DNA of 64,000 bases, from NCBI GenBank assembly GCA_902728285.1, contig CACVBU010000956.1, positions 787,457 to 851,456 on the forward strand. The letters are read 5' to 3'. The position numbers were made by a program, and so were the translations under genes. The DNA comes from Clytia hemisphaerica. Taxonomy: Eukaryota > Cnidaria > Hydrozoa > Leptothecata > Clytiidae. Numbering within the stretch: the stretch's first letter is position 1; every line of letters begins with the position of its first letter. Of this stretch, positions 11,468-58,979 are shown piece after piece. A model generated the notes under the pieces. The model was not told the origin of the DNA. It did no database searches and saw only the letters and a program-made list of their open reading frames with translations.

Positions 11468-11733
11468 CTAGATTTCATCCTCCTCCAAGTATTTTTGATA
11501 TGATTTTTTTGGTCTGAAACGAATTTCTTTTCTCAATGTATCTAAACCACCGTCCGACATCATTTTTGCAACTCCTTGATTCTTTGGTAACTTCTGAAAT
11601 CTCTCTCCAATTTTACTATTAACTTTTTGCCGAAGCCTTGTCCATGAGTTGGTTTTAGCATTTTCGGTGAACACATTGCATAGCTCTTGGATGAACCACG
11701 TGCCCTTAGTTGGATTACGATACGAAACTGTTC
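11468..11733 (-). CDS. last caspase exon (p10 small subunit)
   Basis: Acceptor GATCTTTTCCAG, then the p10 core VSYRNPTKGTWFIQELC, which holds the substrate-pocket strand of the small subunit, then NVFTENAKTNSW and a C-terminal tail ending YLEEDEI and TAG. Phase 1 matches the donor at 12462, giving the typical p10 sequence ATPGTVSYRNP across the joint. The tail of about 60 residues after the core is somewhat longer than usual. Confidence 0.88.
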
Positions 11734-12461
11734 CTGGAAAAGATCAAACGATATACACATTAAACTAAATATTAGGGTTATTAAAGTGTTCGACCAAAAC
11801 CTGGAGACAAAAAGCCGTTTGCTGAACCCGATCTTTTTTTCGAAGGCGATGTATTCAGCACGTATTTTAATTGGTTACTGAGAAAGAAATTATTTTCCTC
11901 TTAATGACTTTGGAGAGTTTTCTTTATCACGTCTAAAGACAATCGGATGTTTTAGTTGAAAAGAGAAACATTTTTTCAACAAAAAGTTTATAATTGTGGC
12001 ACTTCATAACCTTATGAGAAGGCGTGTGTAGGTGCAATCTGGCTCTCTCACCAACGGTATCGTAACAGAAAGAATCAGAGCCAGATTTTTTTGGCTAATA
12101 TAATTTTAGTAGGTTCTTCGAGTCTAAACCTAGAAGGCTCACTGGAACATAAACCTCGAGTATTTCTCAAACTTATAAATAATTTCCATCGTTAACACGC
12201 TGCTTGGTACCGACTATGATAACTTTACTCGGAGTAGAGACAATCTTTTCGTGGACACACTATAAATGGCCAAAACTTTTGATACAGAAACCTCTGTTTA
12301 CATTTTTATTGCATTTTTGACTCTACATGAAATTCTGCATCGATCATTCATAATTTACAGGCATCTGAAGCCAAACCAAGGATAGGAACCTCTGAACGTC
12401 AATTTTTGGTCAATTTTTGAATTTTCTGAAAAGGGCTTGACAGTGAGTTAATTTAATATAC
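11734..12461 (-). other. caspase intron between p20/p10 and p10 exons
   Basis: Roughly 730 bp of AT-rich sequence between donor GTATAT (minus strand, at 12461) and acceptor CTTTTCCAG (at 11734). No coding features were seen. Confidence 0.75.
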
Positions 12462-12893
12462 CTGGAGTAGCAGAGACAAAGAAGCTGAAATCAGCTTCGT
12501 GGGCCAGGCTTGATGGTGATGGTCATGGTTCTTTATCCTTAGCAGACACGGCTGCACCTTCCTGAGGGCCTAGAACAAATGGGTCAGATTGTAAAGACAG
12601 ACTCGGTGGACCATCGGTATTAATGTGTGATTCTTCAGCTTTTCCACTTCCCTGGCAAGCTTGAATGTAGAATAACTTCGGTTTTCCATTCAAATTTGGG
12701 CAATTCTTTCCGTTAAAATATTTTCTCATTTCAGCAAAATCCATCTCTTGACCATCATTGCAATAGATTCCTTTCTCATAACCATGCGATAAGATACATA
12801 TCACCAAGCAATCATGATTTGCATTTCTGTCATCTAAGGCATAGTCACGCAAGATTTTCAACATTTGCGATCTACCGACATTTTCTTTTGTTT
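12462..12893 (-). pseudogene. caspase p20/p10 exon, downstream part (after the insertion), with internal TGA
   Basis: Reads TKENVGRSQMLKILRDYA, then HDCLVICILSHGYEKG with the catalytic His, and KLFYIQACQG with the catalytic Cys, followed by a linker and the p10 start HEADFSFFVSATPG. An in-frame TGA sits at 12523-12525 in the linker, between QACQG and HEADF; the same frame continues correctly after it. The exon ends with donor ACTCCAG|GTATAT at 12462. Positions 12887-12893 (TTTGTTT) are the other copy of the target-site duplication. The linker is where caspases are normally cleaved, so a truncated p20-only product would end there. Confidence 0.88.
12887..12893. repeat. target-site duplication, left copy
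   Basis: TTTGTTT immediately outside the left terminal inverted repeat; the same 7 bp follow the right repeat at 28850-28856. Described KDZ relatives usually give about 8 bp, so 7 is slightly short. Confidence 0.75.
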
Positions 12894-13014
12894 CACCTTT
12901 TTATGTAACGGGTATACGATGAGTATCGCTATCACTTGTCGAAGGTTTGCCATGCTCATCGTTGCACCTTTACTTTCTAGATTTCTGGAGCGAAGGGTAA
13001 ACTGATGGGTATCG
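12894..13014 (+). repeat. left terminal inverted repeat of the KDZ transposon (121 bp)
   Basis: Reads as the exact reverse complement of 28729-28849; identity is lost abruptly after GGGTATCG. On the inner side, two direct copies of TGTACCGTTATTGAGAGTTTG follow (13027-13047 and 13068-13088). Confidence 0.95.
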
Positions 13015-13026
13015 TGCTTTAAGTAA

Positions 13027-13088
13027 TGTACCGTTATTGAGAGTTTGGACATAGGTGATTCTATCATTGTACCGTTATTGAGAGTTTG
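13027..13088 (+). repeat. subterminal direct repeat pair
   Basis: Two copies of a 21-bp sequence starting TGTACCGTTATTG, 41 bp apart, just inside the left terminal repeat and 22 bp before the first possible ATG of the pseudokinase gene. They could be transposase-binding or promoter elements. I did not see them at the right end. Confidence 0.6.
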
Positions 13089-13109
13089 AACGTAGTGTTT
13101 ATCAATCTG

Positions 13110-16100
13110 ATGGAAGCAAGCAAAATGGCGGCGATAAACAACGAGGAATTCAACAACGAGGAGGACGAGGAAAAAGAAATGAACCAAAATTTTAATGAAG
13201 GTATTCAAGTTACTGAGACAAAACTAAGTGTATACATCTGATAGTGTTTTTTGAATTGGAACAATACTTTTACTTTAGGTTTTGGGACCTAAACTGTCGA
13301 AAGTATTCCTTTAAAATTTGAAATTAAGAAATATTTATTTATAGCGTGCCTGCCTGTCGGCGCACCAAACAGTGCGGTGTTTTGTCTGGTCTCAAAAATT
13401 ATCCTTTTGCTACACCAGATGTGGTAAGTCCAGTGTCAGTCCGGTGTTTAAATGCCGGGAGCTTTAGGCACTGGACGTGCGTCGGAAAAACATTATAAAC
13501 GCGCACACCACACGCTCCTCACCAGACACGTCAGCCTTCAGACTTCCGGTGTTGAGGGTGTCCGTTGGTAAAAAGTATTCTTATCCAACACCAGACCTTC
13601 ACCATGTCCGGTGCTGTCAAGTCCGGTGTGCCGGCAGGGTCGTACATCGTAAAAATTAAAACCAAAAAAAATGTTGGTTTTTCATCACATCCATCCAGTT
13701 AGTCCATCCTGGCATCCATATCTACATCTCCAGACGATCTCAATCGAACGGAATCGACAATCTAACCAATCAAACCAAATCAAACGTCAAAATTCTGGAT
13801 AATATTCGATTGGTTTGATTGTTGTTCGACTGTGGTTTGATCGTCGATTCCGTTCAAATGAGATCGTCTGGCTTTATTCTTGCAGCTTCCCCACATCCCA
13901 GCTCTCAAACATCACAAGCCAAATGAAATTAATTTCGATTTCCCGTAGAAATTATGTGATGAACAATCCGGGGGTCAATGAATTGACGATCGAACGCAAT
14001 CAAACATCAATCGAACGCAATCAAACATCGATCGAATCTGAAAATTGCGGTAATATTCGATTGAGATTCGATTGCGTTTGACAATCGAATTTCAATCGAT
14101 TGATTGCGTTCGATTTGGTTTGACTGGTTCGATTGTCAATTCCGTTCGATTGAGATCTACATCTGGCAATTGAACAAGGTGAGCATTTGAACAGGGTTTT
14201 CGTTGCCCAGTGCAAATGAGATAGGATGTCTCAAGCTAATGAAAAGAAGCAAAAATGAACCTTCCCCGAACCTTAGACCACTTACCGTGAGTGGTCCTAA
14301 ATCCGACAACCCTGCCTAATTCCGACCCCCCAAATAACTGTTATGAAAAAAATTCTATGTTTACAAACATTCCCTCTCCAAGTTGAACAATAAACTATTG
14401 CAAGAACTCTTAAAAAAAAGCATCTAAACAAGATTGTCAAAATGTCAATCAATGTAATTTTAAAAAGTGTGAATTGTAAAAATAATTACTTTTTATGATG
14501 CTGTTACTGTTGTTGTCATTTATGATGTACATATTGCAATGAAAAATTATGTTTTGTATAAAAAGTAATTGTTGAAATTGTTATTTGGTTCAATGTATCA
14601 AATCTCTTAGTTTAGTTGACACTTTGGTATCTTTGTTGCGTCACAGCAAAAGGTTTGTTTTTGTTTTAGTTTGTATCTTTGAAAGACCCCATCGGATTTA
14701 GGCAGGACTGTCGGATTTAGAACCACTCACGGTAGATAAAAAAGGCAAAAGGTGAAGAAAGAGCTCAATTTTAATTTATTTTTTCTGTATTGATACTTAC
14801 AGATAGACCAAATTGAACGCAGTCGACCAATTGAAATTTGATTGTTGAATATTGCCATAGTTTTCAGATTAGATTGATATTTATTTGATTGCAGTCGATT
14901 GCATTAGATTGCGTTTGATTGAGATAGGATGTAGGATGGGATAGGAAAAGCAAGTGTTATCATAAGGATGGAAGGACAAATTGCCGAATTAGACCACATG
15001 ACAAATCATATCCTTGCCATACGTCATACAATTGGGAAAGTATGGTGAAAGTGGTGGATTGTATGTTTACATGACATCAGAGTACGTCAAACACTCTTCT
15101 TTGATTTATGATGGAAAATAGGCCTTCTTTAGAGCATAGAACAATCAAAGGCAGTTGAAAGACTACTATATTTTAAACAACAATCGAACACAGACGAACG
15201 ACAATCGAATGCAGTTGAACGATAATCAAACCAATCAAATGGGTCCGTCCCGTCCGTCACACTTTTAAATTTTTCTTGCAGCCTAGGGCCAGCTACATAA
15301 GTTACATTTCAAGTCCAATAATTTCTTAAAATACACCAAAATGATACCTTTAAGTATTAGTTACATGCTAGATAGATCTTCCTCCTCTGCAATATGCGAA
15401 AATGTGCTAAAATCTTCCTTTTGGAAAAATCCAAAAAAGGATAATTTTACAGTGAAATCTTTGTTTGCTGAATTGAATTGAGTGAAATTTTATGCTTATA
15501 AAAAACATGTAATCATTCTCAGGTGAATAGACCCTATACAAAAAGGTTGCTATTTTATTGTTGAAATTTTTTTCTTATTCATCACTAGTAATTTGGGATC
15601 AGATCTATGCTTATTTTGTCAAAAATTATGACAAAAATCACAACAGAGAAAAATCGGGGGCACAACAAAAGAGACGAGTACGACAAAACATAAAGACCAA
15701 AGTGATGGTATGCATTATTATTTTAAAATTATTGTCTCTGTAAACTATTTAATTGAATTATCTTACAAAGACAAATATCATACTATGGAAGATATCACCA
15801 ATTTATTCTAGTTAATGTACTGTAAGTAAACTATATATTTTGTTTCCAAGTATTTTTCTTAGTAAATTTCTTCACTCATAGAAAATATGTAAAGGAATTG
15901 AGAGAGGTGAAAGTGTGGAGGAAATCCTGAAGAAAGTTGCTGACTACGTCTCAACATTATTTAAAGTAATTTATTTTATTGTGTATGCTTTCAACAGAAA
16001 AGTTAAAGAGCCAAAAATAAAAATTATTTGAACCAGTTAAAACAATTACTGCACAGTTCTTCATGCAATCTCCAGGCAATAGATTATTTTATTTTCGCAT

Positions 16101-17886
16101 AACTACCAAAAAGTAAAGTTCTTTTGCCAAAAATTGAAAACAAGTTCAAATATGCTAAATGTGACATGTTTTGTGAAAATTGAACAAATAGTTTTTCCTT
16201 TAAAATTATCTAGGTAGCTGTAGAGATAAAAATTGGTTCATTCCATCATAAAAGTGGTTGTGATGATGAGGTATTTCTTTGTCTAAAAATTTTGTTATTT
16301 TAAAGAAGTATGACCTTTTGATTTATGTGAATAAAACTACTGACTTCAAAATAATTTCTCAAAATTGATTAAAAGGCTTTTTAAAAGTGTTTTACTCCAC
16401 AATGCAATCCACAAAATGTGTAACCGTACATCCTGTGCCCATGTTCAGGAGTTGCCATAAAGCCATTATGGTAATAACCGGGAGGGCACATTGCTATACA
16501 TTGTAATTTTTCCAACTACTTAGTTACCTTTTTTTTCTTCAAAATAAAGGTTGATAATTACATAGGTGGTGGTAAAGGAGAAGAAAATGATGATAGCAAA
16601 ACTGATGATAGCAAAACTGATGAAATTAACAATGATAATAACGTAAAAACTAATGAAAATAATGATAACTGGTCTACTGAAGATTATGAAAGTGAAGAAC
16701 AGGAAAAGGTTTCATTTTGATTTTTAAAACAGATTTGATCAATGTATTGTTTTTAATAAAATTTTGTTTGTTTTACTTGATAGTAAGCTATGGTTATAAC
16801 CTCTTTGCCCCTTTATATTAGGTACTTCAGTCATCCCCCAAGCGCTTTAAAAGATGGAAAGTAGTAGAGTCAGAGGTGGATATAAACAAAAGGCGCCTAG
16901 AGAATGCTAATGCACAAATCAAACGACTTGAGAACTTTAATAGAGCTCAATCAGACACAATTAGCGTCCTCAAAGAAAAGAATGCTTCTCTCTCCCACCG
17001 CAATGCGGAATATACAAAATTGAAGATCATACAGCAGCTTGGAGAGAGACGTTCTACTCTAATGGTTGACGCTTCATTGTTTAGCAAAACTTTTCACTGC
17101 GGGGATCAACTAATGCAAGAGCAAGACTCCACAATAATCGATCCAGAGAGTTTTAAAGTGGCAAAGAAAGTATCTTTGGCTAGTGGTACTTTCTCTAATT
17201 CTGAGAAAGCTGTCTTTCCTGATGGTGACTCAGTAGTGATCAAGTCCTTAAATGGCAGTTTTGGCATGCAAGCTCTTGCAGTTGCATCACATGAGCATCG
17301 AATTCTGACCTTTTTAGGAGTTCATCCAAACATTGTTCAAACTATTGGTCTAGTGCAGTTCAGCAATAACTTTGCACATATTTTAAACTTTGAAACTGGG
17401 TGGACACTCCAACACGAGATTGATAAGAAATTTGTAATGTCCTTGGATAAATTAAAGCAGCATATACTTGGTATTTCAAGTGCCCTTCAACATCTGTTTT
17501 CAAGAGGTGTTCTTCACAATAATTTGGTTGCCAGTAACATTATTTTGACCGACCGCACTAAACCAATACTGATGGGATTCACGTTTGCGTGTCGTGAGAG
17601 TTGTGGTAAGGCAAAAGTTGAAGATGTTTTAAAGCTTTTCAGTAATCAAAGTCACTTTGCCCCTGAACTCTTCAGAGGGTCAAAGGTCACCTATTCGTCC
17701 GATATTTATTCGTTTGGCATCCTCCTCCAGCGAATATTGAAGAGACCTTCATCGTTTTCATTGGAAGATGTACTCAAGACACGGTTAGAGTGCATTGCTC
17801 AGCATTGCGTGGAAAAATCTCGTGGAAAGAGACTACCCCATCTATTTTTGCAGAGCAGGCTAATAGCGATCATTGAAAATTCCTGA
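13110..17886 (+). CDS. transposon-borne acidic/coiled-coil pseudokinase, 6 exons
   Basis: Exons by splice consensus and phase: 13110-13200, 15589-15707, 15882-15965, 16214-16270, 16550-16708, 16822-17886, giving about 524 residues. Residues 1-30 are acidic (a second ATG is in frame at 13125). Exon 2 gives VIWDQIYAYF and a basic stretch, and exon 5 a D/N/E/K-rich linker. A coiled-coil-like region (RRLENANAQIKRLENF) leads into a kinase fold: VVIK with the lysine, EHRIL for helix C, LHNNLVASN in place of HRDLKxxN, MGFTFA in place of DFG, and APEL. The glycine loop reads SLASGTFS. Both catalytic aspartates are missing, so I predict a pseudokinase. The exon structure makes one unfused kinase unlikely. 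The function of the N-terminal half is unknown. Confidence 0.82.
13730..13871. repeat. 142-bp fold-back element
   Basis: Arms CCAGACGATCTC...GGAATCGAC (13730-13758) and the inverted copy at 13843-13871, about 29 bp with three mismatches. The inner part is rich in ATCGAA/CAATCAAA, a sequence type also seen at 13985-14150, near 15200, near 49000 and at 50166-50570. Confidence 0.7.
14283..14734. repeat. 452-bp MITE with about 45-bp inverted repeats
   Basis: Ends are TACCGTGAGTGGTCCTAAAT at 14283 and its inverted partner ending CACTCACGGTA at 14734. The arms extend over about 45 bp with a few mismatches (CCGACA, CCTGCCTAA). TA at both tips would suit a TA target, as in Tc1/mariner-type MITEs. 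No coding capacity. Confidence 0.75.
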
Positions 17887-19146
17887 TTTTATGGTTGTTA
17901 AACTTAAAACTTGAGTGGCAGACATAATATATACAAAAACTTTCGTTCCTCTAGAAAATAGATGTTGATTGCAAACAAACTCTCTTATGTAAAGTAATCA
18001 AATACAAGAATCAAATAAACTAAACCTGTCAACCTTTTTTTATAAGCATGAGTTGTTTGCTTTATTCTTTAAAGATTGGAACCTTTTTTATGCATACACT
18101 TTCCCTTTTTTTTCCCATCCAAAAAATACTTGTAAATTTGCTGCTAAGAAAAATCCCTATAGGGGTCATAATAATGTGATTTTAGAGTTAAAATTTTCAA
18201 AAATTACGAAGTCCCCTCTCTTATTTAGACACAGAAGAGTGTAAACTTAACAAAACGAAAAATTACTTTCCTGGAATTGAAAAAGTTGGTGTTTTGATAG
18301 GATCTTCTTGGATGTGAAAAGATATTTTTGAAAGAACTTTTTATGGTATTTTTACCACAAATAAAGACAGGAAATAATATTCCCTCGAGTTTGTTTGCAG
18401 CCAAGCACTTTAATATCAGAAAAGCTTTGTGGAAAAAACTTTAGAATGTTTAAAATTCTCACACCTGCCTAAAGATAGCAATTGAAGGTTACATTTATAT
18501 TTTTCAAGCCTGCTTGCTTTTTATTTTGAGCACCCTGTTTCTAGGGATAAAATTTAGAAAAATAGACTATTTGCAAAATCGGCTTACTTTTTTCCATTCA
18601 TATTGTCTTTAAATAATGGTGACTTCTTAAAATATAAATTTAAGTAGATCCACATACTGATTGATCTCTTAGCATTTATCCTGAAACACTTTTGTTTTAA
18701 GTGAATTTTATCTACATACTAGCATAAACTTGATCTCTCACAAGCAAGTTTGAAGATTTCTAGAATTATTAGCTTATTTCGATTTTATTTGTTAAAGAGA
18801 AATATCAAAGTCCATATTATGTATTTTATTTATTCAGTTGTTTAAGATATTGTAGTCAATATTCCTGAATATTCTTGTAATATTTTTCCACGAGGCATTT
18901 AACTAATCAAAAAATCATGTCATCATCTCTGAATACCAGACTGAAAAATTTAATTCTTACATAGATCTCCTCCCTTTTAAAGGTATTAAATACAGTAATT
19001 ACTACTGTAATTTTGGGTGAACGCTTTTACAAAATATAAAATGATGCTGTTGTTTCACATCGACTATGTTGCTGTTCTTGTTGTTTTTTCTTTTTATTTT
19101 AGTTTCTGTAAATAACATCGAAAAAATTCATTGAAATAACAACGTC
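17887..19146. other. spacer between pseudokinase and homeodomain/HMG genes
   Basis: About 1.26 kb of AT-rich sequence inside the transposon. It must hold the 3' end of the pseudokinase transcript and the promoter of the next gene. I see no coding sequence. Confidence 0.55.
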
Positions 19147-20523
19147 ATGTCTACCAAAGTAAAAATTGTCAAAACTGCTCAACAGATTGAAACATTGGAG
19201 AGTTTTTTTCAAAAAGGGATGACATCATACGGCAGGGACAATGTCAACGGGCTAAAGCTGTTGGATGAGGCTGTCAAGGAAACTGGCCTTACTGAAACAA
19301 TTGTTAAGGTAAACACCCTGACAAAAATTTATCTTATATATAAAACTTTTCTACCCTGTTAGCTTTGTAGCGGTATAATATTGAAAGTAGTGAAAACTTG
19401 GCCTTCGTCTAACTATCAAAATTACGAGTAGCATGGATATGCTTGATAATTAATCCTTTTTTTTGATCTTTGCAAATTGATAAAAAATACTGACACTGCT
19501 ACTGACAGTTTCGTGCGCAAAAATGGATACGTTTTTTAATACGCTCGAAAAACCTTTTCCGTCGTATACCAAAATTAATATTTGCTAAAATTAGCAACTT
19601 TAAGGAAATCTATTGGAAGATTTTGTGTTCATGATTTTCTAAAAAAAAAAAACAGGAAAATTAGAATTTGACAAAATAAAAATGGGGCAGATTTGAGAAA
19701 TCTTAAAAATCCTAATCACGAAAATTATTCTTCACGTGAAATTTACTGTAGGAATGGATCAGGAATAAGAAGAAGGCCCCCAGTAAAAAGAAAACCGAGA
19801 AGGTCAACGAGCGAAATCCAAGAGGATACGACCTATTCAAATCAAAATGGTTGACTGGTAAACTTAATTACAGATTTTATTTTATTTACCTGTTTTCAAA
19901 TATATTCAATGATGATTTTTTTTTTCATTTCTAGTTGTGTTTTAATTAAAACTATTACATTATTTATTCAATGACAAGCCAATAAATAGCTTCCTCTTCT
20001 TCTAATATGATTTCAGATAACCCGAATAGCTCGCTACGAGAAGCTAATATTGCATGGAAGGAATTGGTAGATGAAGAAAAGCTGGATTTCAATAAACGGG
20101 CATCGGAAATCGAAGAGGTCAATTTTCATGACAAACCAGTGGAATGGCAAAAGAAGAAGATATCCCTTACTAGGAAGAAAATTTTAGACTTGGTAAAACT
20201 TTTTATTATTCTATATTTCAATGTATGATGCATTCACGATTATTTTCATAAAATAGTAACCACTAAAACTATATACGACGATTTTAAATTTCTCGAGATA
20301 CATTTTAGAAATCGACTAAATCCGTAATATATCTCTAATCTAATTTTTCTGAGAGCTTTCGAATGGTATAACTGGTTAGATGTTTTGACAACTTCGATTT
20401 TTCGTCGAATTCTAAGGGTCAAGGGTTTTATATCTTTTGTCATAGGATGCAATTAACGTACAAAAGAAATTAACGCAAACGTTGATGGGATTGGAACTAC
20501 TCATACAAACATATGGAAAGTAA
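19147..20523 (+). CDS. transposon-borne homeodomain-like plus HMG-box-like protein, 4 exons
   Basis: Exons 19147-19308, 19752-19857, 20017-20192 and 20446-20523 (TAA) join with consistent phases into 173 residues. Residues about 9-63 look like a homeodomain: QQIETLESFFQKG for helix 1, then VKETGLTETIVKEWIRNKKK, where EWIRNKKK sits at the WFxNxR recognition-helix position. The usual F and R are replaced by I and K, so it is divergent. A Lys-rich linker leads to an HMG-box-like segment (RNPRGYDLFKSKW ... IAWKELVDEEKLDFNKRASE), and a short helical tail follows. Likely a nuclear DNA-binding protein. It lies inside the transposon, convergent with the transposase gene 208 bp away. A helper role in transposition is an inference. 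Confidence 0.8.
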
Positions 20524-20731
20524 TGATCATGGCAAAAATAAAGTCTATTTTTAGATTTACCGCGGTACGCTATTCACATGAATAAAGGGCTCGATACCTT
20601 AGATTTGAATATACTTTTAAGGGTAATCGGTCCGTCATAGTTACTAAACGTTTGTTCTTGATTTAAAATGTGTAACAAAATAAAAAAGTAATTTTAAAAA
20701 GCATGGATAATGGTAACTCTTAAAACCTAAA

Positions 20732-23700
20732 TTACCGTTTTGCTTTTCGTTGATGTAAGGCAACATCAGATACTTTTTCACTCATCAGTGCTAAAGAAGA
20801 TTCCCTGTTGAAGGTTTTAAGCTTTTCGTAATAAATTTGTCTCCAGTCGGCAGCATCTAAAAAGAAAAACGCACATTGCTATTACCATTAAGTTTAAAGC
20901 CCGAAGGGCTAGAGTAGAAACTTTTGTTTACAGGCAAGAAAAGTGAAACCACTTAATTCTTTGTTTTCAAGTACTATATTTTTCGAAATCTAGTGATAGA
21001 TTTAATTTCAATCCGGCATTTGTGTAAAAACCATACGCAGGTGTTCTGGATAAAGATAAAGATTAAATAGCTAGGAAATGTCCCATCCAGGTGTTTCACG
21101 TCTAGCCCCTTCGGGACTTTAAACCCAATGCCTATAACACGTAGCTGAATTATAAGCTTACCTCTAATTATAAAGAAGTAAAATGCTACAAAATTCTAAC
21201 GCTACGTTATTATTTTATTTATTCGTCAATGTCAAAGGAGTACTGTCATTGTTTTCAAATTGGCTGAACGTTTGAAGATTTGTCCTAGAATATTATTTGT
21301 CGTGTCCGTCAGTAGAGTACCGTCAATGCTTTTGTCAATAGTTGCCTAGATGTCCTCAAAATACAGATCGGTTGTATATCTGAAAAATAATACAAAAAAT
21401 GGTTCTAAAAGCCTAAAATCATTATTCTTTAAGTTCTGTTACAACGTAAAGCGCTCAAGCAAATTAAGATAAATTAAAGTAAGTAAATAGATTAAGTAGT
21501 CCAAGAAAAGTGCTGTGGTAGAAGCAGTAATGACCTGGTTGCAGTGGCCTTTTGTCCTTGTTTACAACACTGTCTTCCTCTCGTTTCCAAGCTTCAATGA
21601 CTTTCTCATCCACTTTAACTTCTACAACGGAATGAGATTGATGAATTGCTAAGTAGTAGCTTTTTTATTTCACTGAATACAATACTCTTTATTTCCTTTT
21701 TATGATAGGGATCATTACGATTTACCTAGAGGGGAGAGACTTTCATGTGATTGAATTTCAAGAACTGACGAACGAGTTTTCTCCCGCAGATAAAGGTATA
21801 ATAATTATAGTTTTCCTACAACTAGTAAATAAACAGTAGGGAATCAAAATACTTATTTATACCATAATGGATTGTAGACACGATCTGAATGACAATGAAA
21901 GGAACCATTACCAGTCAGTTTAGAGCATATCGCTTTAATCTCCGACTCACAGGAATTCACGGTTTCGATCGCCTTGTTACGCAAAAATACAAGATATTTC
22001 CCTAAAGCAAAAATTGTGCAAGCTTATACGAAAAATAAAAAAATTGAAAAATAGTATGCTTGTGTTTTAGTCTAAATAAAACGTCACAAGTCAAAGAATT
22101 TATAAGATGGATCTCGAATGTTTCTTAAAGTACTTGCCTATGTTTCCCATTTTCTTTGAGCCAAAGTGCATCAAGGCATCACTGAGTAAGTCAGTTCGAT
22201 GCGCCGGAGTCATTTCTTTGGTTATCTTTGAAAACGACCTCAGGTAAGACCACAGGCGCTCCATCAGTTCTCCATCCATCAAACCAAACGTTTCAAGCCG
22301 ACGAATGGAATTCTTTACCTGGATAAACAATAAAGTTCAGGGAATACACTCTTCTCGAGATGCATAAATTTATTGTTGTCCTCGTTTTCAAACAGATTTC
22401 ATTGCTACGAAATTATACATTTAAACCAATTTAAATTCCCAAAAGGCAAACATTAACTCTAAAACAAAAGTACTTGAAATTCAAAATGTCTCATGAGGTG
22501 TAAACAACACAATTATCATTGTGAATATGTAATTTTATAACAATGAAATCTGTTTGAAAACGAGGACAACAATAAATTTATGCATCTCAAGAAGAGTGTA
22601 TTACTGATATTTTCTAGTGTAACGGAGGGTGATAATAAGGGCATCATCAAAGCGTGCTTCAATTTTGTTTATTGCCACTCCAGGATGACGAAGATACATT
22701 CATCATAATGGCGGAGAAGAAAAATTATTACCTGACAATCCCCTCTGTGACCATATGAGTGAAAAACTGGTATTCCAAAGTGGAAATCTTTGTACTTCGT
22801 AAACGTGTTCTTTTTCTTTAAAAAAGCAAAGAACGTCTAATGTGGTTTGCTTGTGAACATTAGTCATAGATGAAGAGCAAAACATCGCTAATACTAGCAG
22901 GTACCCGGCGTCGCTATAATCTTTGAGAATGACATTGGAAATAAGAATACAGTAAGTGTACATACCTTCAAATGCGATTTTAATACACAGGCTATGTCAT
23001 ATATAACGTGAGTGAGTAAACTTTTGTCATGATTTTCTTCCAACAAACGGTCAAGTAAATACACAGCATATCCCAGCCTGAAAATTTTTATATGATGTAC
23101 AATAATTTTTCAACCCCGATATCATTAATAATGACCTCCCATTTTATGACTTTTATCCTACGAAGTACCAAAAAAGGGTTAAAAGCTTCATTTTCCAAGA
23201 TTCCAAGGAATCTTCAGCACAATCAGGCCCCAATCAGACACATTATGACCCCTCCCCGATTTTGTTGATTTTATTCTCGAGTACCCACCCGTCCCGCTTA
23301 TTCTATTGTCCCCTAAAATTAAGCACCAAAGAGTAGCATATGGAAAATGAGCTCACCCTGGCTTAAATTTCGTTAATTTATTTTTGCCAAAATTTTGCAG
23401 ATGAACTTTGTCCAAGAAAGACCAGATTTAGGATCGATTTATGATTTCAGAGCAGTTCCACAAAGATTGCTTTCGGGAAAATATCTTCCCACAAATATTC
23501 ATTTCTAAGGAATTATACTACACGTTATTTTTATAAGTAACCAAGTTGCCAAGATTCAAGCGCTTAAAATGGATCTGAAGATCTTGGAAAGAAATTCTTT
23601 TTTCAAACTTCATTAAAATTGTATTTGATTCTATTCTCCTTGAGATTCAATTTAATTGTTGGGGATAAAATTCAACTCATTTTAATACCTTTCACCATGC

Positions 23701-26700
23701 CTCATATTTAGGAAGAGTTTTGGAAATTCGTGTCTACAAGACATTCCGAAAATTCCGGTAACACTTAATTTCTTTGTTTTTCTTTTCGATCGAAGATTGT
23801 TTCCGGCTTGGAAGTTACTGCAATCCTAGTAAGAAGTTCCTAAAGAACTACAATGACTTTCAATTATAATATTTTGTAACACAGTATATCAGAACATATA
23901 AGGACTCATGAGGACTCATAGCATCTCAATTTTTATAGGTCAAAATATTAATTTCACAGCTTCTTAGATTAAGATTGCTTTGATTTGATTTTGAAAAATT
24001 TTAAAGGTCACTCCTAGAGAATTTAATAAATTAAAATATGTTTAGGCATCGCTGCTTTTTAAAATAGAATAAAAATCTCACCTTTGTTTTTAAAGCATCA
24101 TCATAGTTCACCATGAATGAATCGATATCTTCATCAGGAACAAATAAATTGGAAGATCGCATCGCAAGTTTCTTTGATTTGGAAGCAGACGCTTTGAGTA
24201 CTAGACCAAAGTTTGCATCTAAACAATAGAACACACTGCCGTCTTCCTAAACGAAAGTTGATATTCCTTCTTTAATACACATTATTTTACTTAAAGCAAG
24301 CTAGTTGCTAAGGTTGGCCTTGCTCATAAATTTGCTGTACTCTGAGCCTTTGATAAGCAAAGCAACTTCTTCTTCAACAACAGATGTTCACAACATGAAC
24401 AAGAGAAAACCTTAGTGGCCTATTGAGCAACAACTGCAACCTTGAGTTTGACAAAAATCTTAGCGACCTTAGCAATGAGCCAGAAAATAATAGGTTTGCT
24501 TATTAAAATGTGTTCCTTAGTGTCAACAATGTTATGCACCTTAGTGGTTCCACTCTGATCAAAGCATGTGTAAAAGTAATTCTTACTTTGGGACAAGCAG
24601 CACACTCTTCTAGTCCAGTGAAGTCTTCACAAATGCTTCTGAGGTTAAGAAGTTGCCTCCGAAAGTTCCTAAACTGATCGATAGTGTCAGTCTTCTCCAA
24701 ACGATTTAGATATCTTCTCTAAAAATAAAAATAAAAACTCAAGCGCCAGAAAACAAGAATAATTGAAAATATCTCAACGAGTGTAAGAGCCTATTTATTA
24801 AAAAATAAATCAAGCAAAGTAATAATAATAACATATATTTTAAGTGGCATGCTCCGAATATTCAGTATCCTTTAGACACCTAAAAAATTGTTTCCACGAA
24901 GGGCAACTAATACTAGTTTATCATGAAAATATTTACCAAGACAGTGTTTCCCATTCCTTTTTTCCACGCTAGACCATCACAAAAAGAATGAAAAGATATC
25001 TTCCCCTCCAACTGCAACGAGATGAAAAGGTGTAGGAGATCTATAGACACCACCGTATTTGGTTTGATTGGAGTCACAGGCCACAAGTCAAGACGAAGTA
25101 GTGTTTCCAAATCACTTTCACATTCACAAAAATAGATAGAGCACTGATGATGTAGTCCTAGAAAAGATGACGTAATTTTGAAAAAAAATTATTCAAATAT
25201 ATAGATTTTATCTTTCCCCCCTATTTGTATCTATGTCTTATAGAACATAATGCTGAAATTCTGTAACTATGAAAAATCATAACGTTTAAAAAAAGAACCA
25301 TAGACCCAAAGTTTTAAAACTTTCAAAAGGATATTTGCATGAACAATTTAATTAGATTATCAGGTAGCCTGTTTTTATCAGAGAATAAATTAATATCACA
25401 TTGTTGGTCTGGGAGGGGATGAATTTTTTTTCCAAGGTAAACATCAAAGAAAGGTATCAATCTTACTTATTGATTACATGAATATCTTTTTTTGTATAAT
25501 GTTTTTGCATGAATTTATCATTTATAATTCATTTTGATGTGAACCAACAACTTTATATAAGTAATTTTCAGATCGAGAGACCAGAAATCAAACAGTAATG
25601 GGGAAGGAAAGCCAGATGGGGGTTTTCAACACCGGATGGGGGACCCAAAAAACTTGCATGACACCATGTGATCCTTTAAAGTAATGACATGTAAAGGATT
25701 TTTAATACCTGTTTCTGAAATTACTGTCAATAATCTAGGCTTGGCATACAGACATTGGCTTGTATGTTTGCTTTTCAGCTCATAATTGACTTGAAATTCG
25801 TGAAACCCATCATCCTTCAAATAGATTAGGAAGAAATTATATAAATCAAAAGTTTTTTGATGGCCAGTCTGATTATTGTCACTTCTTCAAAAGACCACTA
25901 AACCCTGAATCTAGCGCAAATGACAGGAAAGAAATCTGCAACTACTTTCCTGTACATTCCATGCTTTCTAGAAGAGAACGCTTTTTCTATACATTACTTT
26001 CATAAGCAACCTAAGCTGCTAAGGCTCCAGCCCTGAAACAGAAATCCATCCGTTGGTATCAAAATATGAAATCCCTTTGACCACTTCAGCCCTGAGCAAA
26101 AAATTATCTCAATATGTAATCAGGCAAGGGTCCAGCTTCACAAAAAAAGAATCAAGTTGGGTTATCATAAAGACCTCAAAAATAATCTTAATTTATTTTA
26201 AATGTACCTGTATGTTTATTTCATTTGAGACCCAAGAGTATACCCTATTACCAGTTACTCTAGGATTAGAATACTTACATTTATTTCATACAGACAATGA
26301 AAAGGCATGTGCTTATGGATCTTAACAGCACATCCACTGCAATATGTGGTTCTTGGCCCACATGTTTTGCACCATACACAATTTTCAAGTAATTTTGTTT
26401 CACAGATAACACATATTGTGGGTAGCATTTCATCGAACTTCTCTGCGTACTTCCTTATCACTTCAGGTGAGAAGGTATCCCATGCCCCAAGCTCCTTTTC
26501 CTTCATTGTCTGGTACTTTGACCTTTTTGAATCATCGTTTGTTTTGTTTACTGAATCAGTGACAAAGTTATCCTCTTTTGAGCTCTCATCCTCATCCCCA
26601 GATATACAAGGACTGAAAGACTCATTTTTCAAGTACTTTGATTGAGATGAACTGCTCATGAAAGGTTGGACATAAGTAGTCCTTTTTCTACCATTTCTTA

Positions 26701-26758
26701 TTTTTGTGCTTTTAACTTTGACAACTTTCTTTCTGAATGTTCTTTGTGTTCCAGTCAT
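20732..26758 (-). CDS. KDZ-family (Kyakuja-Dileera-Zisupton) transposase, at least 12 exons
   Basis: Exons I can place: 26758-26279, a short one near 26090-25995, 25814-25709, 25157-24937, 24718-24587, 24246-24082, 23817-23689, 23077-22966, 22794-22732, 22318-22138, 22001-21912, 21621-21535, 20856-20732 (TAA). One small exon between 24082 and 23817 is unresolved. Exon 1 is basic and Ser-rich and ends in a Cys/His cluster (CVICETKLL, CVWCKTCGPRTTYCSGC). Family motifs follow in order: LWPVTPIKPNTVVSIDLL, CAACPK, YCLDANFGLV (first catalytic Asp), FVPDEDIDSF, TGIFGMSCRHEFP, MRHGERLGY, VIYDIAC (second Asp), FHSYGHRGDCQ, and FGLMDGELMERLWSYL with MTPAHR (catalytic Glu). The 22138 donor is of GC type (ATAG|GCAAGT). 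All placed exons are open; total about 650 residues. It should cut and insert the element ends in the nucleus. Confidence 0.9.
20892..21124. repeat. 233-bp fold-back element in a transposase intron
   Basis: Inverted arms GTTTAAAGCCCGAAGGGCTAG (20892 on) and CTAGCCCCTTCGGGACTTTAAAC (ending 21124), about 22-24 bp with small gaps. It lies between the last two transposase exons. Confidence 0.7.
22345..22600. repeat. 256-bp fold-back MITE in a transposase intron
   Basis: Sixty-bp arms: 22345-22404 starts TACACTCTTCTCGAGATGC, and 22541-22600 is its inverted copy with essentially one mismatch. TA at the tips fits a TA target. It sits between the exons at 22732-22794 and 22138-22318. Confidence 0.85.
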
Positions 26759-27617
26759 TATTTTAAACCTTAAACATAATCATTGTACAGGAAACAAAAT
26801 GAATATCTGTTTTATAAAACATGAACTTTATGAAAAAGGGATATGTTTTTATACCTGGAATGCTGGTGTTAAAGCCCTGAGGAGAATTCAAAGGGGAGAT
26901 GCAATAGAAAAATACATCATGATAAAAGGAAGAAAGAATAAAGATCTTATATTGAAAATATACTTCAATATAAATTTTTACAAATACATTCACCTTGAAA
27001 GTTTAATTTTGTCTCTCAGGTCAGAGTTTACAACTGGGGTCTTTGCAGTATATAATTATAGTCCTAGTCCACGATCAATAACAAAGTCCAAAATCAATAT
27101 CATATTGGTTTTCAAATATATGTTTTGATTCAATCAAAAAATTCCACGAAGACACACATTAAACACACAATTGAAAGCAGTAATTATAACCTCATACTTT
27201 CTTTCCAGTGCAAGAAAATATTAAAACCCCTGTTTTGATCTACGACATCCAGGGCAAGACGTTAGTAAAAACAAGATTTTGCCGCTATTAATCAGGCCAG
27301 GGGGTTGAAATCAATGTTTTGATTTGAAACATGACGTCATTTTGGCTGCACTATTCCCAGGAGAATAATTTACCGTCAGATGAAGGGTTATATTTGCACC
27401 TTCGCTGCTGAAGTGAGAGGTGCATTATTTGTACATAATTGATAATATCTTTTTAACGCACAGACAAAATATTTTTTCCATAGATCAGATTCTTTTGATA
27501 AAGAAAAGCTTTCTTCTCGTACGATTTTTTATAGTCGATGTTTGTTTATCTTTGTCAACCAGCACTATATGTAGTCGTTTTAAGCCTTTGTAGGCTAAAC
27601 ACGAATGAAAACTACTG

Positions 27618-28119
27618 CAATACACCTTATCGGAAATTCCACAAAAACAATTGCGCTAAAATGGATCCGTTGAAATTGGGAGGTAAACATAAATGGTAGC
27701 GCGAGTAGCGACGGTATGGCTAGCAATCCATGGAGTACGTTCGCGTGGTACGGCCCAGCTTCAACACTACATTTCCGTCACGTAAATATACTACATGAAT
27801 TCTAACCCTGTATAAAAGTTCCCGCGTAAAACAAGAACTCATTTGCTTATATCTGGCTTGTTTATGTTCCTAAAAATACACTGAATTTGAAAAAAACAAA
27901 CAAAACAAAGCTTTCAAGATGCTAGCAGAAGCTATTAGAAAGAGAAAAACAACAAATTCGGTGGTTCTTCAGTTGATTTGGAGGCTCTTTTGGCATCAAC
28001 ATTTTGGGTGTTTTGTAAGGCTTTTTGCCTGAAAACCGCAATATCGAGCTTTGTTTACCTCCCAAAAAGTGTTGCGTAGCAACAACGCGAGGAGGTGGAA
28101 TTTCCGATAAGGTGTATTG
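27618..28119. repeat. 502-bp inverted-repeat element
   Basis: Perfect 25-bp arms: CAATACACCTTATCGGAAAT at 27618 and the complement ending 28119. A second inner pair GGGAGGTAAAC / GTTTACCTCCC occurs about 35-40 bp further in. Non-coding, inside the transposon. Confidence 0.8.
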
Positions 28120-28169
28120 ATTGCAGTATACCGCAATTGAGGGATTTCCATCCCTCCTGTGACTGTTTA

Positions 28170-28287
28170 GGGGACCCGTCCATATTCATTTGACAATGCA
28201 AAACGTCAAATTGACGTTATCCTCTAAACCCCCCACCCCACGCCAATTTGATGTTATGCGTTGTCAAATGAATATGGACGGCTCCCC
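28170..28287. repeat. 118-bp fold-back element
   Basis: Arms GGGGACCCGTCCATATTCAT (28170 on) and the inverted copy ending GGCTCCCC at 28287, about 47 bp each with a few mismatches around a C-rich loop. Confidence 0.8.
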
Positions 28288-28728
28288 TTATTTCCCTAAT
28301 ATCAAATTAAAAGTTTAAAAAGCCTTTAATAGCAAAAATCATGAAAGAGGAAAACCACAACACAACAGCTAAACCCCAGAATGGAAATTTGAACTGATTC
28401 TGCACATTATCTTCTCTTCATTAATAGCATAGATAGTAAGCAGTAAGTAATCTATACAAATCATTCTGTTGAGCAGAATTCCCATCCAGCAGACTGGCAG
28501 AAAAATCTACGCGCCATACATTGCACTGCTCATCTGCCATTATGAAGATCATAATGCGCATGCTCAGACAGGTGAAAGTTGGTGAAAGGGTAGCCTGACT
28601 ATCGACACGCCTTGCTCTACAGTAGGTACGACGCGAAATATCGTTTGTTTTCACTCATCCCTATAAAGCTTCAGCGTGCTGGGAAAAAACAATCACAATC
28701 TGTTCTCAGGTTAGTGAAAGCGTGAGAG

Positions 28729-28849
28729 CGATACCCATCAGTTTACCCTTCGCTCCAGAAATCTAGAAAGTAAAGGTGCAACGATGAGCATGGCAAACCT
28801 TCGACAAGTGATAGCGATACTCATCGTATACCCGTTACATAAAAAGGTG
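28729..28849 (-). repeat. right terminal inverted repeat of the KDZ transposon (121 bp)
   Basis: Reads as the exact reverse complement of 12894-13014. Followed directly by TTTGTTT (28850-28856), the duplicated target. Confidence 0.95.
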
Positions 28850-29035
28850 TTTGTTTCGACTTTAAACTGTAACCAACCTTTTCAATAGCTTTACCATCAA
28901 CGTCGGTACCATTTCTCTGACTAAGTAGGATTCTATCACGTGTCTTTACTGTGGATAGGAAGTAGTTATTGATAATGATGCAAAATCCACGTGGCTCTGA
29001 CGTCATTTGATAAAAATCGGCGGGATTCTCGCTCT
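28850..29035 (-). CDS. caspase p20 exon, upstream part (before the insertion)
   Basis: The acceptor TGATATTTTAG precedes codons ESENPADFYQMTSEPRG. The segment holds the p20 N-terminal strand EPRGFCIIINNYFL, the RNGTDVDG loop with the conserved Arg and Asp, and IEKVGYSLKSK. It is cut at 28849 by the terminal inverted repeat of the transposon. The base pairs 28850-28856 (TTTGTTT on the plus strand) are one copy of the target-site duplication. Confidence 0.88.
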
Positions 29036-30082
29036 CTAAAATATCAGTAATGCCAAAAGAATAAAATGATGAAGTTGATGAATGATTATAAAAAAAGGTT
29101 ATAGTCCATTCACTATCATCTGAGAAATGGTTTAGTACTATACAATCATGGTCGAAATATATTGACATTTTAGTGTATTTTAACGTTTTTCCGAATTTAA
29201 AGTTTTATTTAGATTTAAAGGGCGAGAATTGCTATTTTAGCACTTCCACTTTCATTCATTGAATGCTTCAAGTTTAGAGGGGTTCGGTGACTTCTAGGCT
29301 ATATTCCAAGCCTTATTCGAGCAAATTTGAGCTTTAAAATCCTGAAGATCCTAAGGTCCTGAAACTCAGAGTTAAAACTCCCATTTTCAACTGTAGTTTA
29401 AGGCACTTAAAAATCATTTGTGGTTTTTAAATTTTCACCGGGAAATCCCCGTTGTCTCAAATGTTTTGTCCATGATTGTAGAATCTGTTTTTGTTGCTGT
29501 CGATGATAGTGGAAAGCAAGCGTTTCCAATGAAAAGATGTTAACGATTACCTAGCAGATAATGAATAGACTTTAACTTTGTTTTTTATTATGTATTCTCA
29601 GATGTCTTTTAAACAGTGGAGATCAACTGAGGAGGCAGGCAAATGTTTAAATTTCTTAACCCTATTCATCCTAGGCTTTTAGGGGCGGTTTAAAACTAGG
29701 GGGAGGGGGCTTTTCCTGTACCACTCCATAACTTTTGATCTAGTGGGTCTTTTTGGATGAAATTTGGAACACAAGATCCTTGCCTCCAATTACTGCGCGG
29801 GCATTTTTTGTCCGCTTTATGCCACTAAAACCGTCCCAGTCTTTTTTTTCACACCTATAGACAATAGAATAATGTGTCAAAAAAGGATTGGATCGAGTTT
29901 AGTGGGATAATTAAATAATTAAGTGGCACGCGCCTGACCGTGCGGCTACAGTCGAAAAGGCGTATTGAATACTCGATTTAAAAAGAGATTTTCGTCACTC
30001 GATCTTTTCAAACAAAATTTCTTCTCCTTAGTAATAATACAGGAACACCTAATGGTGATTAATAAAATTCATTTTTTCTTAC
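29036..30082 (-). other. caspase intron 1
   Basis: Between donor G|GTAAG (30082 downward) and acceptor TATTTTAG (29036). AT-rich, with no coding features apparent. A 73-codon frame on the plus strand at 29965-30186 overlaps the first exon antisense and is not a gene. Confidence 0.65.
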
Positions 30083-30947
30083 CATTCATGAAATCCATAA
30101 ATTTCGAATCACTATCAATAATTTCATCAAAATCGTTTTCAATTTCTTTCACCTGTTTGCGAAAGTCGACTTTCCCGTCAAAATAATTTGGGTCGGATAA
30201 AAGTTTAATGACTGTTTTGATTGCCATGTGTATAATCTTAAACAGCTCATCTTGTCCACCATTGATGTCTTTAAAATTATTACCAAGAGATTTGCTGCGA
30301 TTACAAACAAAGTGTTCACATTCTTCGCGAGTTACATGGAATAAATTTCGCCATTTCAACATAACCTCAAGGCTTGCTTTTAGATTAGCCATATAACAAA
30401 GATTCGAATTTTCCATTGTAATAATATCACAATTCTTATCTTTGCCACTCAAATAAAACTCTTTGAAATCTTCAAATTTATCACGGCTGCATTTGACGCA
30501 TTTCCCACATAATTTGCAGCATAATTTACCGCAGTCTGCCTTGTCGCAATTACACAATGGGCATCTCTTCATTTTATGTTTACAAGAGTTACAACATTTA
30601 GCACTATGGTGCACACCACATGTCCCTTTGTCTCTTTCAAAAAGAAAATCAGTTTCAATCAATAACTTTAACAATACCTGGATATCCAGATTATTAAATC
30701 CAATATCCTTTCTTAAATTATCTTTCTTAGGATTGTTATTGTCAAAAAACTTGTTAGTCGCCAATGAATATATTTTCTTTTTCTGACCATTGTATGTGTC
30801 TTTCATCCTTTTAGCAAAGGCTTGTGAAGGTGTTGCAGCAAGGTCATTATTGTGGTATGATGCAAAAGCTTCAACCAACAATGAACACAATGGTTGTAGT
30901 TCAGCAGTAATCTTCCATACCAGACCATGCAATTGTTTCCCATCCAT
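30083..30947 (-). CDS. first exon of caspase gene: HEPN-like and Cys-rich prodomain
   Basis: Starts at ATG 30947 (MDGKQLHGLVWK) and is open for about 288 codons to a strong donor, ATGAATG|GTAAG. Residues 1-115 include a helical region with a stretch (IGFNNLDIQVLLKLLIETD) resembling the HEPN-like domain of DZIP3-type proteins. Residues about 125-175 form a dense Cys/His cluster (CCNSCKHKMKRCPLCNCD, CGKLCCKLCGKCVKC). A second helical region follows with LKWRNLFHVTREEC, like the R-N-x-x-x-H region of HEPN folds. It joins the caspase p20 exon in phase 1, so I read it as a prodomain. The HEPN assignment is by motif feel and moderate; the joining to the caspase is better supported. Confidence 0.68.
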
Positions 30948-31057
30948 GTCATTTGTTCATAAGTTTCATTGTCTTTATTATAGATAATATGCTTGTGTAC
31001 TGTTTGTTATTGCTACCTGAAATTAGATGTACAAAATCTAGATGAATTATTTCTTCT

Positions 31058-32640
31058 ATGGAAATTTTCACGTCCAAAGGAAAATGTAACTTCAAATTGA
31101 TGAGAAAACAGATAAAATTGCTGGAAGTGATTAAATCCTTCGGTCCGGATGATATACACCCGAAAATGTTAGTTGAGCTGATTGACCATCTAGCCGAACC
31201 CCTGAGTATCATCATGAACAAGACCTTGTCTGAGGGAACAATACCAAAAGATTGGAAGATAGCACATGTTACTCCGATTTATAAAAACAAGGGTGCCCAA
31301 AACCTTGCGATAAATTATAGACCTGTTAGTTTGACTTCAGTAGTCTGCAAGTTAATGGAATCATTTATAAGAAAGCACATTATGAAGCTCATCTAACTGA
31401 CGAAAAGCTTCTAACCAACAAGCAATACGGTTTCTCATTAGTCGCCACTCCACCGTCACACAACTCCTAAATTATTTGGACAAGTGCTGTGAAAGTATAG
31501 ATAACGGTGGTGTTGTTGACACTATATATTTCGATTTTGCAAAAGCTTTTGATACTGTGAATTAGGGCAAAAGAGGGAACTTTCAAAAAAGAATTCCCGA
31601 AAATCAATAAGCGGGGGGGTTGGAATAAGAATGTCCTGGGTGGAAAATTTCCGAAAAATTAATTAGCGGGCCCCCCGGCTATTAGGTACCCGAGAGTAAT
31701 TAAAAAGCTGAAAGGATATGGAATATCTGGAATCATCTTGAGATGGGTAGATTCTTTTCTGCCTGACAGAAAATAATTGGTTAAGGTTAACCAAACTCGA
31801 TCTAAGACAGATGATGTTATCAGTGGTATTCCCCAAGGAAGTGTTTTGGGACCACTTCTCTTTGTTATCTACATCAACGACCTCCCAGACAATATGCTGT
31901 CTTCGATTCTCCTATTTGCTGATGACACGAAGATTTTCAGAGAAGTCGACTCGATTGAGGACTCATTGGCTATCCAACAAGACATACACAAACTTGAAAA
32001 GTGGTCAAATGACTGGCTATAAAGATTTCACCCAGATTAAGTGCCACTTTCTCACTCTCGGTAAATATTGGAATATTGTCCACGTGCACCCTTATTCAGT
32101 TAGAGGTGAACAACTTTAACATGTTTTTGTTGAAAAAAGATCTCAGTGTTCTGATAGACTCTGACTTATCCTTTGAAGAACATATATCAAAACAAGTGAA
32201 AAAAGCAAATTCCATTCTAGGAGTCATCAGAAGAGGTTTCGAAGACCTAAGCCTTAAAACTTTCTTCACTCTGTACACAACCTTTGTCCGGCCTCATCTC
32301 GAGTATGCCCAATCTGTATGGTCACCAAAAGTATGTAAGGACATCAACTTAATTGAGGGCGTTCAATGGCATGCCACTAAAATGGTCAGAAGGTTAAGTA
32401 ATCTACCATTCGAGCAGCGCCTACGAAAACTTGACTTGCCTTCTCTCGAAGACACTTCGGAGACATGGTTCAGATCTACAAACACTTGCACTTCTACGAA
32501 AAGGGCACCACAGTTGGAAAGTTTATTCGCAGGGTGCGTCCATCTCGAATTTACGATTACGAACTGATACCAGGGATATGTTATAGCGTAGCTGGATAAC
32601 ACACATTTGAAAAAGCCTTGTTCTATCTCTGTCCCTGACA
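31058..32640 (+). pseudogene. decayed CR1/Jockey-type non-LTR retrotransposon (reverse transcriptase)
   Basis: Fragments in several frames. 31058-31396 holds KSFGPDDIHPKML and NYRPVSLTSVVCKLME. Near 31500-31565 lies motif A as IYFDFAKAFDTV. 31777-32022 holds IPQGSVLGPLLFVIYINDLP and LFADDTKIF (catalytic ADD). 32076-32567 holds the C-terminal part, LSFEEHISKQVKKANSILG and YTTFVRPHLEYAQSVWSP. Stops and frameshifts separate them, and about 120 bp of unrelated DNA (31567-31685) interrupts the gene right after motif A. The endonuclease domain is absent (5' truncated, as is usual). It starts just upstream of the caspase gene, on the opposite strand. Confidence 0.88.
31567..31685. repeat. insertion with an internal duplication inside the LINE
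   Basis: Foreign sequence between FDTVN and the following VIKKLKGYGI segment. It contains two related blocks, TTCCCGAAAATCAATAAGCG and TTTCCGAAAAATTAATTAGC, each followed by a G/C run. No target duplication is obvious. Confidence 0.55.
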
Positions 32641-32925
32641 TTAAAATTTGATATAAAATTAAACTTTTTTAGTTACAAATTCGTGAAATTTGGATTTCTT
32701 TTTAGCCAATGATTCTGCTGCTGCATTTATTGTTCATGATTAAAAACTTTTAATTATCAAGAGGGTCTGTAAAACATTGGTGAATGACAATTTAAAAGAA
32801 TGAAAAACATTGTTTTCATTAGTAAAGTTATAAGAAATTTCTTCTGTAAGATTATAAATAGCTCTTTTTCATTTGAAATTCCGCGCTACACCGTGGGGTG
32901 CCTCACTTTCTAACTGATATTTTCA

Positions 32926-33411
32926 TAGACTAGTAAACTAGTCGGTTATTACTTATAACCTTATAATAAAACTGTCAATCAAATAATGTAAACACTAATT
33001 AAATATTCAGCGTGCGTGAGAGAAAAGGAAAATAACCGACTAGAAGCTACTTCCAACGCCTTTTTTTCTTCACCTAAAATCGTAAGGAGACACATACAGA
33101 TTTCTGTATGTCTGACCCGTGCGGGATTGCATTTATTTTTCTTTCTGTTTATTGCGTTTTTAGAAATGCTCATTTATTCATATGTTCCCATGTTCAATGT
33201 TACTATGAAATATGATTTAGTCAAAAAAGTTGGATGGATTCTCAAAAACCTAAAAAAAGTTGTAAAATTAAACAACGTTTTTTGAGGGAAGTAGCTTCTA
33301 GTCGTTGAAATTCAGAAAAGAGACGCAACTTCACCCCTTCAATTCTTTTTATTTATTAGAGCTTCATTTTTTGTATATGGGTCTGTTTTCAACGACTAGT
33401 TTACTAGTCTA
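32926..33411. repeat. 486-bp MITE with TIRs and 9-bp target-site duplication
   Basis: Perfect 19-bp inverted ends, TAGACTAGTAAACTAGTCG at 32926-32944 and the complement at 33393-33411. A second inverted pair lies inside (CGACTAGAAGCTACTTCC near 33038 and GGAAGTAGCTTCTAGTCG near 33288). ATATTTTCA directly flanks both ends, a 9-bp duplication as made by Mutator-like transposases. The 89-codon frame inside (33016-33285) looks accidental. Confidence 0.85.
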
Positions 33412-58978: not shown

Positions 58979-58979
58979 A

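Follow-up and report, generated by a model that had tools for sequence, protein, structure and literature searches.

The window analysed here, a stretch of 64,000 nucleotides from the genome of Clytia hemisphaerica (C662:787457-851456), harbours an element at positions 12894 to 28849 that is very probably a deletion derivative of a giant KDZ cut-and-paste transposon equipped with a recurrent set of accessory genes. An earlier note, drawn from the letters of the window alone, had read this element as a recently moved, possibly autonomous KDZ transposon carrying a pseudokinase and a homeodomain/HMG protein. Both of these genes are indeed found next to KDZ transposases at other genomic loci, which supports them as cargo of the element.

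Ends and transposase of the element

The ends are formed by an inverted pair of 121 nucleotides, which is 100% complementary, encloses 15,714 nucleotides and represents the longest such pair between positions 10000 and 32000 of the window. The element as it now stands measures 15,956 bp, its termini read CACC..GGTG, and the heptamer TTTGTTT adjoins it on each side. Thus, the identical inverted ends and the 7-bp flanking duplication described in the note were both recovered:

12887-12893, no strand: left 7-bp target-site duplication TTTGTTT, directly outside the left repeat
12894-13014, plus strand: left 121-bp terminal inverted repeat, starting with CACC and containing GATGAGTATCG and GATGGGTATCG
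28729-28849, minus strand: right 121-bp terminal inverted repeat, perfect complement of the left repeat
28850-28856, no strand: right 7-bp target-site duplication TTTGTTT, directly outside the right repeat

When up to three mismatches were allowed, a 28-nucleotide core of the repeat was detected at two sites in the window, i.e. at both ends, and in none of 100 shuffles. Genome-wide searches took in 417,433,876 bases on 951 contigs, and very common words were skipped in the search with the 121-bp end (12894-13014). This search returned the end at 100% identity at both window sites only, together with a single relic of 76% identity over bases 1-98 (C408:331367-331465; 98 bp). Recent movement of the window copy is plausible, judging from the exact 7-bp duplication and from a copy of 99.7% identity elsewhere in the genome; the identity of the ends, taken alone, is no measure of age for a DNA transposon. 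Several inverted repeats are nested within the element (13730-14157, 14283-14734, 27618-28119 and 28169-28288).

The minus strand encodes the transposase:

20735-26758, minus strand: KDZ transposase gene, 12 exons, with Pfam domains KDZ, CxC2 and CxC1
26758-26279, 25814-25709, 25157-24937, 24718-24587, 24246-24082, 23825-23689, minus strand: transposase exons 1-6
23077-22966, 22815-22732, 22318-22138 (GC donor), 22001-21913, 21622-21536, 20857-20735, minus strand: transposase exons 7-12

A profile search established the identity of this protein, yielding 159.5 bits for the KDZ domain (PF18758; cut-off 26.6 bits; E 1.2e-46), and the N-terminal cysteine clusters matched CxC2 (50.7 bits, cut-off 27) as well as CxC1 (27.7 bits, cut-off 26.9). 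The motifs that had led to the KDZ assignment in the first place were located in three consecutive exons on the minus strand, YDIAC in 23077-22966, FHSYGHRGDCQ in 22815-22732 and DGELMERLWSYL in 22318-22138. In the protein alignment, D323 is present in all 21 rows with a letter at this position, D441 in 22 of 22 and E496 in 19 of 20; these three are presumed to form the catalytic D-D-E triad. Exons 1-9 and exon 10 as far as 21913 match the Clytia NCBI protein P0001, which is annotated on a near-identical copy of the element, C254, as isoform X3 of the C254 gene.

The accessory genes recur beside KDZ transposases

The transposase reads towards two genes on the plus strand:

15589-17886, plus strand: pseudokinase gene, long helix and kinase domain; 524 aa including the proposed first exon
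15589-15707, 15882-15965, 16214-16270, 16550-16708, 16822-17886, plus strand: pseudokinase exons
13110-13200, plus strand: proposed first coding exon of the pseudokinase, 96 bp inside the left repeat, weakly supported
19147-19308, 19752-19857, 20017-20192, plus strand: homeodomain/HMG-like gene, 3' part lost; exons join in frame

Gene content was compared between loci, as the earlier note had proposed, on the basis of a kinase and a KDZ search, both of which score best candidates only. The 87 rows of the kinase search were manually condensed to 37 places, with places having all rows at or below 32% identity left out as ordinary kinases, and the KDZ search gave 87 rows that were merged into 17 places. 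One kinase row (C349:497641-498447, 24%), which lies ~26 kb from a KDZ place and reads away from it, was dropped. A family kinase is found within 30 kb at 11 of the 17 KDZ places, the window included (C254, C662 (window), C308, C341, C432, C781, C899, C866, C22, C207 and C558), and is convergent with the transposase in all 11 cases. Assuming that places are spread evenly, chance would provide ~0.0055 linked kinases per KDZ place, or ~0.09 in total. When the window and the near-identical copy C254 are omitted, the linkage amounts to 9 of 15 KDZ places. Across the nine other linked loci, the kinase pieces share about 33-63% identity with the window kinase, and the eight linked loci whose kinase DNA was compared form six groups at 90% DNA identity (C207, C899 and C558 lie outside this comparison).

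A homeodomain-like gene accompanies the kinase at 11 of 18 further kinase loci (C254, C735, C866, C596, C308, C486, C626, C850, C432, C341 and C700), always on the kinase strand and downstream of the kinase, and its matches in diverged loci show 29-57% identity. It was not found at C234, which was read with 20 kb in all, nor at C22, C285, C473, C360, C781 and C797, which were read with only ~1.5 kb of flank. The arrangement is laid out over 38 kb at C866, where a kinase (32431-34263, plus strand), homeodomain-like exons (35603-36447, plus strand) and a chromodomain-like open reading frame (ORF; 37885-38109, plus strand) are faced by a transposase (58832-47032, minus strand) with C-terminal exons. 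The C866 kinase is about 44-45% identical to the window kinase, and since the kinases have diverged to ~45% identity, the arrangement must be old. The gene order of the lineage is pseudokinase, homeodomain/HMG-like gene and chromodomain-like ORF on the plus strand and transposase on the minus strand reading towards them, with the chromodomain-like ORF seen in two copies only, C254 and C866. The position of the two plus-strand genes next to the transposase is not a matter of chance.

Features of the accessory proteins

The carried kinase scores 74.8 bits with Pfam Pkinase and matches the NCBI protein P0031 of Clytia, which, like P0001, comes from contig C254. Among the best 120 of 1181 database matches, 16 are family members, the named ones coming from Clytia (six) and Hydractinia (one), and the bit score falls from 194 for the family to 60 at the next protein. 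The HRD and the DFG aspartate are each kept in none of the 15 members covering those columns, while the beta-3 lysine (15 of 16), the alpha-C glutamate (15 of 16) and the loop asparagine (15 of 15) are retained. The predicted structure has a kinase fold (mean pLDDT 71.2; Foldseek best E 2.7e-14). Judged by these residues, the protein is a pseudokinase, predicted to function without catalysis. The proposed first exon has an open frame, a donor (GAAG/GTATTC) and a phase compatible with the exon at 15589. Its N-terminal similarity stands out with only one of four relatives tested, P0046 (equalled by 16 of 500 shuffles).

The homeodomain/HMG-like protein contains the motif WIRNKKK and reaches 14.9 bits with the Pfam homeodomain (cut-off 22.9), and no Pfam match to an HMG box was obtained. 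Compared with solved structures, its first part resembles DUX4 and MATalpha2 chains (E 0.15-0.29) and its second part the HMG boxes of PMS1 and TFAM (E 0.013-0.067). An unrelated synaptotagmin appears at 0.019, and single structure matches therefore mean little. No database protein matches at E <= 0.001. Of 86 control segments taken within the element, one attains the codon score of the gene, which was calculated with a fourth exon that was later rejected. What makes the gene credible is its recurrence beside the kinase at other loci. The exon 20446-20523, considered as last exon of the gene, was rejected because it lies beyond the deletion junction described below.

The third accessory component is located outside the window copy:

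C254:1661108-1661743, plus strand: chromodomain-like ORF, with a counterpart in C866

The C254 and C866 versions share 39% identity over 77 aa, and the C254 ORF scores 15.9 bits with Pfam Chromo (cut-off 25.1). It may be a gene in its own right, or else the 3' part that the homeodomain gene lacks.

The window copy has suffered an internal deletion

The copy C254:1651921-1676969 matches window positions 13264-28213 at 99.7-99.8% identity, and its flanks (3.9 and 3.0 kb read) differ from those of the window element. The two copies part at a single junction:

20429/20430, no strand: deletion junction, 10,123 bp, relative to C254 1659073-1669195

The extra C254 segment contains the C-terminal exons of the transposase in order (1669021-1667915) and the plus-strand chromodomain-like ORF. 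A further copy, C735, which is 92-96% identical to the window where aligned, runs unbroken from window position 20429 into this extra segment, and hence it is the window copy that lost the 10,123 bp. The losses comprise the C-terminus of the transposase, the end of the homeodomain gene and the chromodomain-like ORF. A profile of the C-terminal transposase part gave no convincing match in the 64 kb of the window (best E 0.79); with a profile of the core as control, five exons were recovered. The part in question is present in 12 of 22 aligned proteins and is common to molluscs, amphioxus and a tunicate. Thus, the window copy is an incomplete deletion derivative of a larger element, and the suggestion that it is possibly autonomous is not supported. 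C254, in turn, is truncated at both edges, by 370 bp on the left side and by 636 bp on the right, and has lost both repeats with them. So one copy possesses ends without a full transposase, the other a fuller transposase without ends. The match to C254 breaks off at window position 28213, within the hairpin 28169-28288.

Weighing the alternatives

Several observations weigh against the interpretation of the element as one copy of a KDZ transposon with a recurrent gene set. There are six KDZ places among the 17 without a family kinase within 30 kb (C820, two on C672, C784, C797 and C349), and 26 of the 37 kinase places have no listed KDZ match within this distance, with only best candidates scored and several of the places being fragments. 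Near-identical pairs, perhaps alleles, occur among the places (e.g. C254/C662, C781/C866, C432/C850 and C308/C596), which are therefore not independent events. At C735 and C234, two close kinase copies, no transposase was found in the 20 kb read at each, and at C234 the homeodomain gene is likewise missing from this stretch. The homeodomain, HMG and chromo assignments all remain under curated cut-offs. Paired inverted ends have been shown in the window copy only, and none were found in C866 or C254. According to the earlier note, copies with the same ends lacking the two plus-strand genes would mark these genes as chance neighbours; what came to light is the lone relic end on C408, with no partner end and no related genes in the 34 kb read, and the genome search found no second full copy with the 121-bp ends. 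The size of the kinase family, the many places without a listed KDZ match, the findings at C735 and C234 and the fact that NCBI annotates kinase members as ordinary genes would suit a scenario in which the kinase and homeodomain genes belong to the host and happen to neighbour KDZ insertions, or in which the window copy captured them on a single occasion. However, we regard this as very improbable, given a kinase within 30 kb at 11 of the 17 KDZ places, convergent in every case, where ~0.0055 is expected per place, a homeodomain-like gene that recurs in the same position and on the same strand, and the enclosure of all three genes of the window copy by the paired ends.

It is even harder to believe in a two-part relic, i.e. 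an old KDZ shell that acquired its plus-strand genes through unrelated insertions nested within it: the nested inverted repeats inside the element would accord with such a history, but gene order and strands recur in copies with kinases only about 45% identical. Autonomy of the window copy, with the short transposase being sufficient despite the extras of C254, is somewhat less remote but still unlikely. In its favour, the catalytic core is open and complete, and P0001 ends after the same exon despite the presence of the C-terminal exons in C254, so that a short form may be made. However, these exons stand in order in the extra segment, C735 continues from the junction directly into it, the window has no trace of them, and molluscs, amphioxus and tunicate share the part they encode. 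A deletion derivative of a giant KDZ transposon with its own accessory genes accordingly remains the preferred explanation. Whether one may go further and postulate a hydrozoan KDZ lineage with a four-part core set (transposase, pseudokinase, homeodomain/HMG and chromodomain), selected for action of the accessory proteins together with the transposase on chromatin or on host signalling, and accounting for the entire pseudokinase family as transposon-borne, is a question on which we lean slightly to the negative; the named members of the pseudokinase family among the database matches listed are so far all hydrozoan.

The element interrupts a caspase gene

The sequences flanking the element belong to one host gene:

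12523-12893, minus strand: caspase gene, second part of the interrupted exon with the catalytic-Cys part QACQG; Peptidase_C14, 75.3 bits, profile 42-134
28857-29204, minus strand: caspase gene, first part of the interrupted exon with GTDVD; no Pfam match alone

Joining both flanks yields 97.2 bits over profile positions 1-133, that is one caspase domain, and the element therefore sits inside a coding exon. The p10 part of the caspase follows at 11743-11471 (37.5 bits). Thus, the element entered as one unit, into the coding exon of a caspase gene. A frame shift close to the site of insertion is also present in the caspase pieces (11471-12893 and 28857-29204, minus strand); the gene copy may therefore have been damaged, perhaps even a pseudogene, before the element arrived. 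Upstream of the pieces, 30072-30956 (minus strand) holds a 295-aa open frame that matches no Pfam profile and might be the N-terminal portion of the caspase gene. Elsewhere in the window, two retrotransposon frames lie on the minus strand, 34699-38514 (Pao-type; Peptidase_A17) and 43602-47966 (copia-like; RVT_2 and rve). Similar frames at 2-5224 and 55061-60122 (plus strand) were judged by eye, 55061-58975 having no Pfam match.

Proposed mechanism and relation to known elements

Because the transposase is of the DDE class, we infer that it would bind the inverted ends, cut there and join the ends to target cuts staggered by 7 bp. With the C-terminal part missing, any movement of the window copy would now depend on fuller transposases encoded at other loci and acting in trans. 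The DNA-binding-type and chromodomain-like proteins may act on chromatin at the donor or target, where they could help to find or open target chromatin, or they could control expression of the element. The pseudokinase might serve as a non-catalytic scaffold or decoy for host signalling.

In its layout, the element resembles MuDR of maize, which has long identical ends and two convergent gene units, one for the transposase and one for an accessory gene; the transposase superfamilies are unrelated, and the likeness is confined to the layout. Giant KDZ transposons with accessory genes are known, whereas the set of pseudokinase and homeodomain/HMG-like gene appears to be new: no KDZ element with this gene set is described by title or abstract in the literature searched, which left subscription journals mostly outside.

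Fungal Kyakuja elements share with the Clytia element 7-bp duplications, CA..TG termini, a KDZ transposase and a carried accessory gene, which is a TET/JBP gene in their case (PMC12730594). They differ in that two Kyakuja families are described without inverted repeats (PMC12730594), while the Clytia element has perfect 121-bp repeats and carries a pseudokinase and a homeodomain/HMG-like gene instead. Zisupton and Dileera generate duplications of 8 bp (PMC12730594) rather than 7 bp, and for nematode Zisupton it is reported that no duplications were detected (PMC9297572); Zisupton transposases have up to about 1,400 aa. Zisupton resembles the Clytia element in its multi-exon KDZ transposase in animals and its inverted repeats, but the sections consulted mention no accessory genes of pseudokinase or homeodomain type (PMC9297572, PMC12730594). 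Cryptococcus KDZ1-KDZ3, for which insertion has been shown, likewise possess KDZ and CxC1 domains and have inverted repeats of 139-241 bp at a size of about 9-11 kb. Their duplications are 8 bp (KDZ1) or 4-8 bp (KDZ2 and KDZ3) long, and such accessory genes go unmentioned in the available sections (PMC12810828). The giant elements of Ectocarpus, generally >10 kb and up to 30.3 kb for KDZ, come close in other respects: many families have additional transcribed genes, there are nested insertions, and the transposase is often pseudogenized with movement in trans being proposed (PMC12477816), as in the Clytia element with its extra genes, nested insertions and broken transposase. However, the accessory genes in Ectocarpus are mostly of unknown function, whereas Clytia, an animal, has one recognizable set across diverged copies. 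One 'likely KDZ transposase' gene is listed for the Hydractinia sex locus (PMC9926710). Among the database proteins, Hydractinia is represented by a member of the kinase family (P0043) as well as by a KDZ protein (P0008), the two being recorded on contigs that differ in length.

In these sources, the best accounts of KDZ elements concern fungi, where TET/JBP genes travel along as cargo. In the jellyfish lineage, a dead kinase and genes of DNA-binding type have remained next to the transposase while the copies diverged deeply, which suggests that KDZ elements of animals keep helper genes as well. What such helper genes do can be asked in Clytia, a laboratory animal, which also offers a pair of nearly identical copies with complementary damage and an element inserted in a caspase gene. 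Furthermore, the pseudokinase genes, which the annotation treats as genes of the host, may have to be reinterpreted as belonging to transposons.

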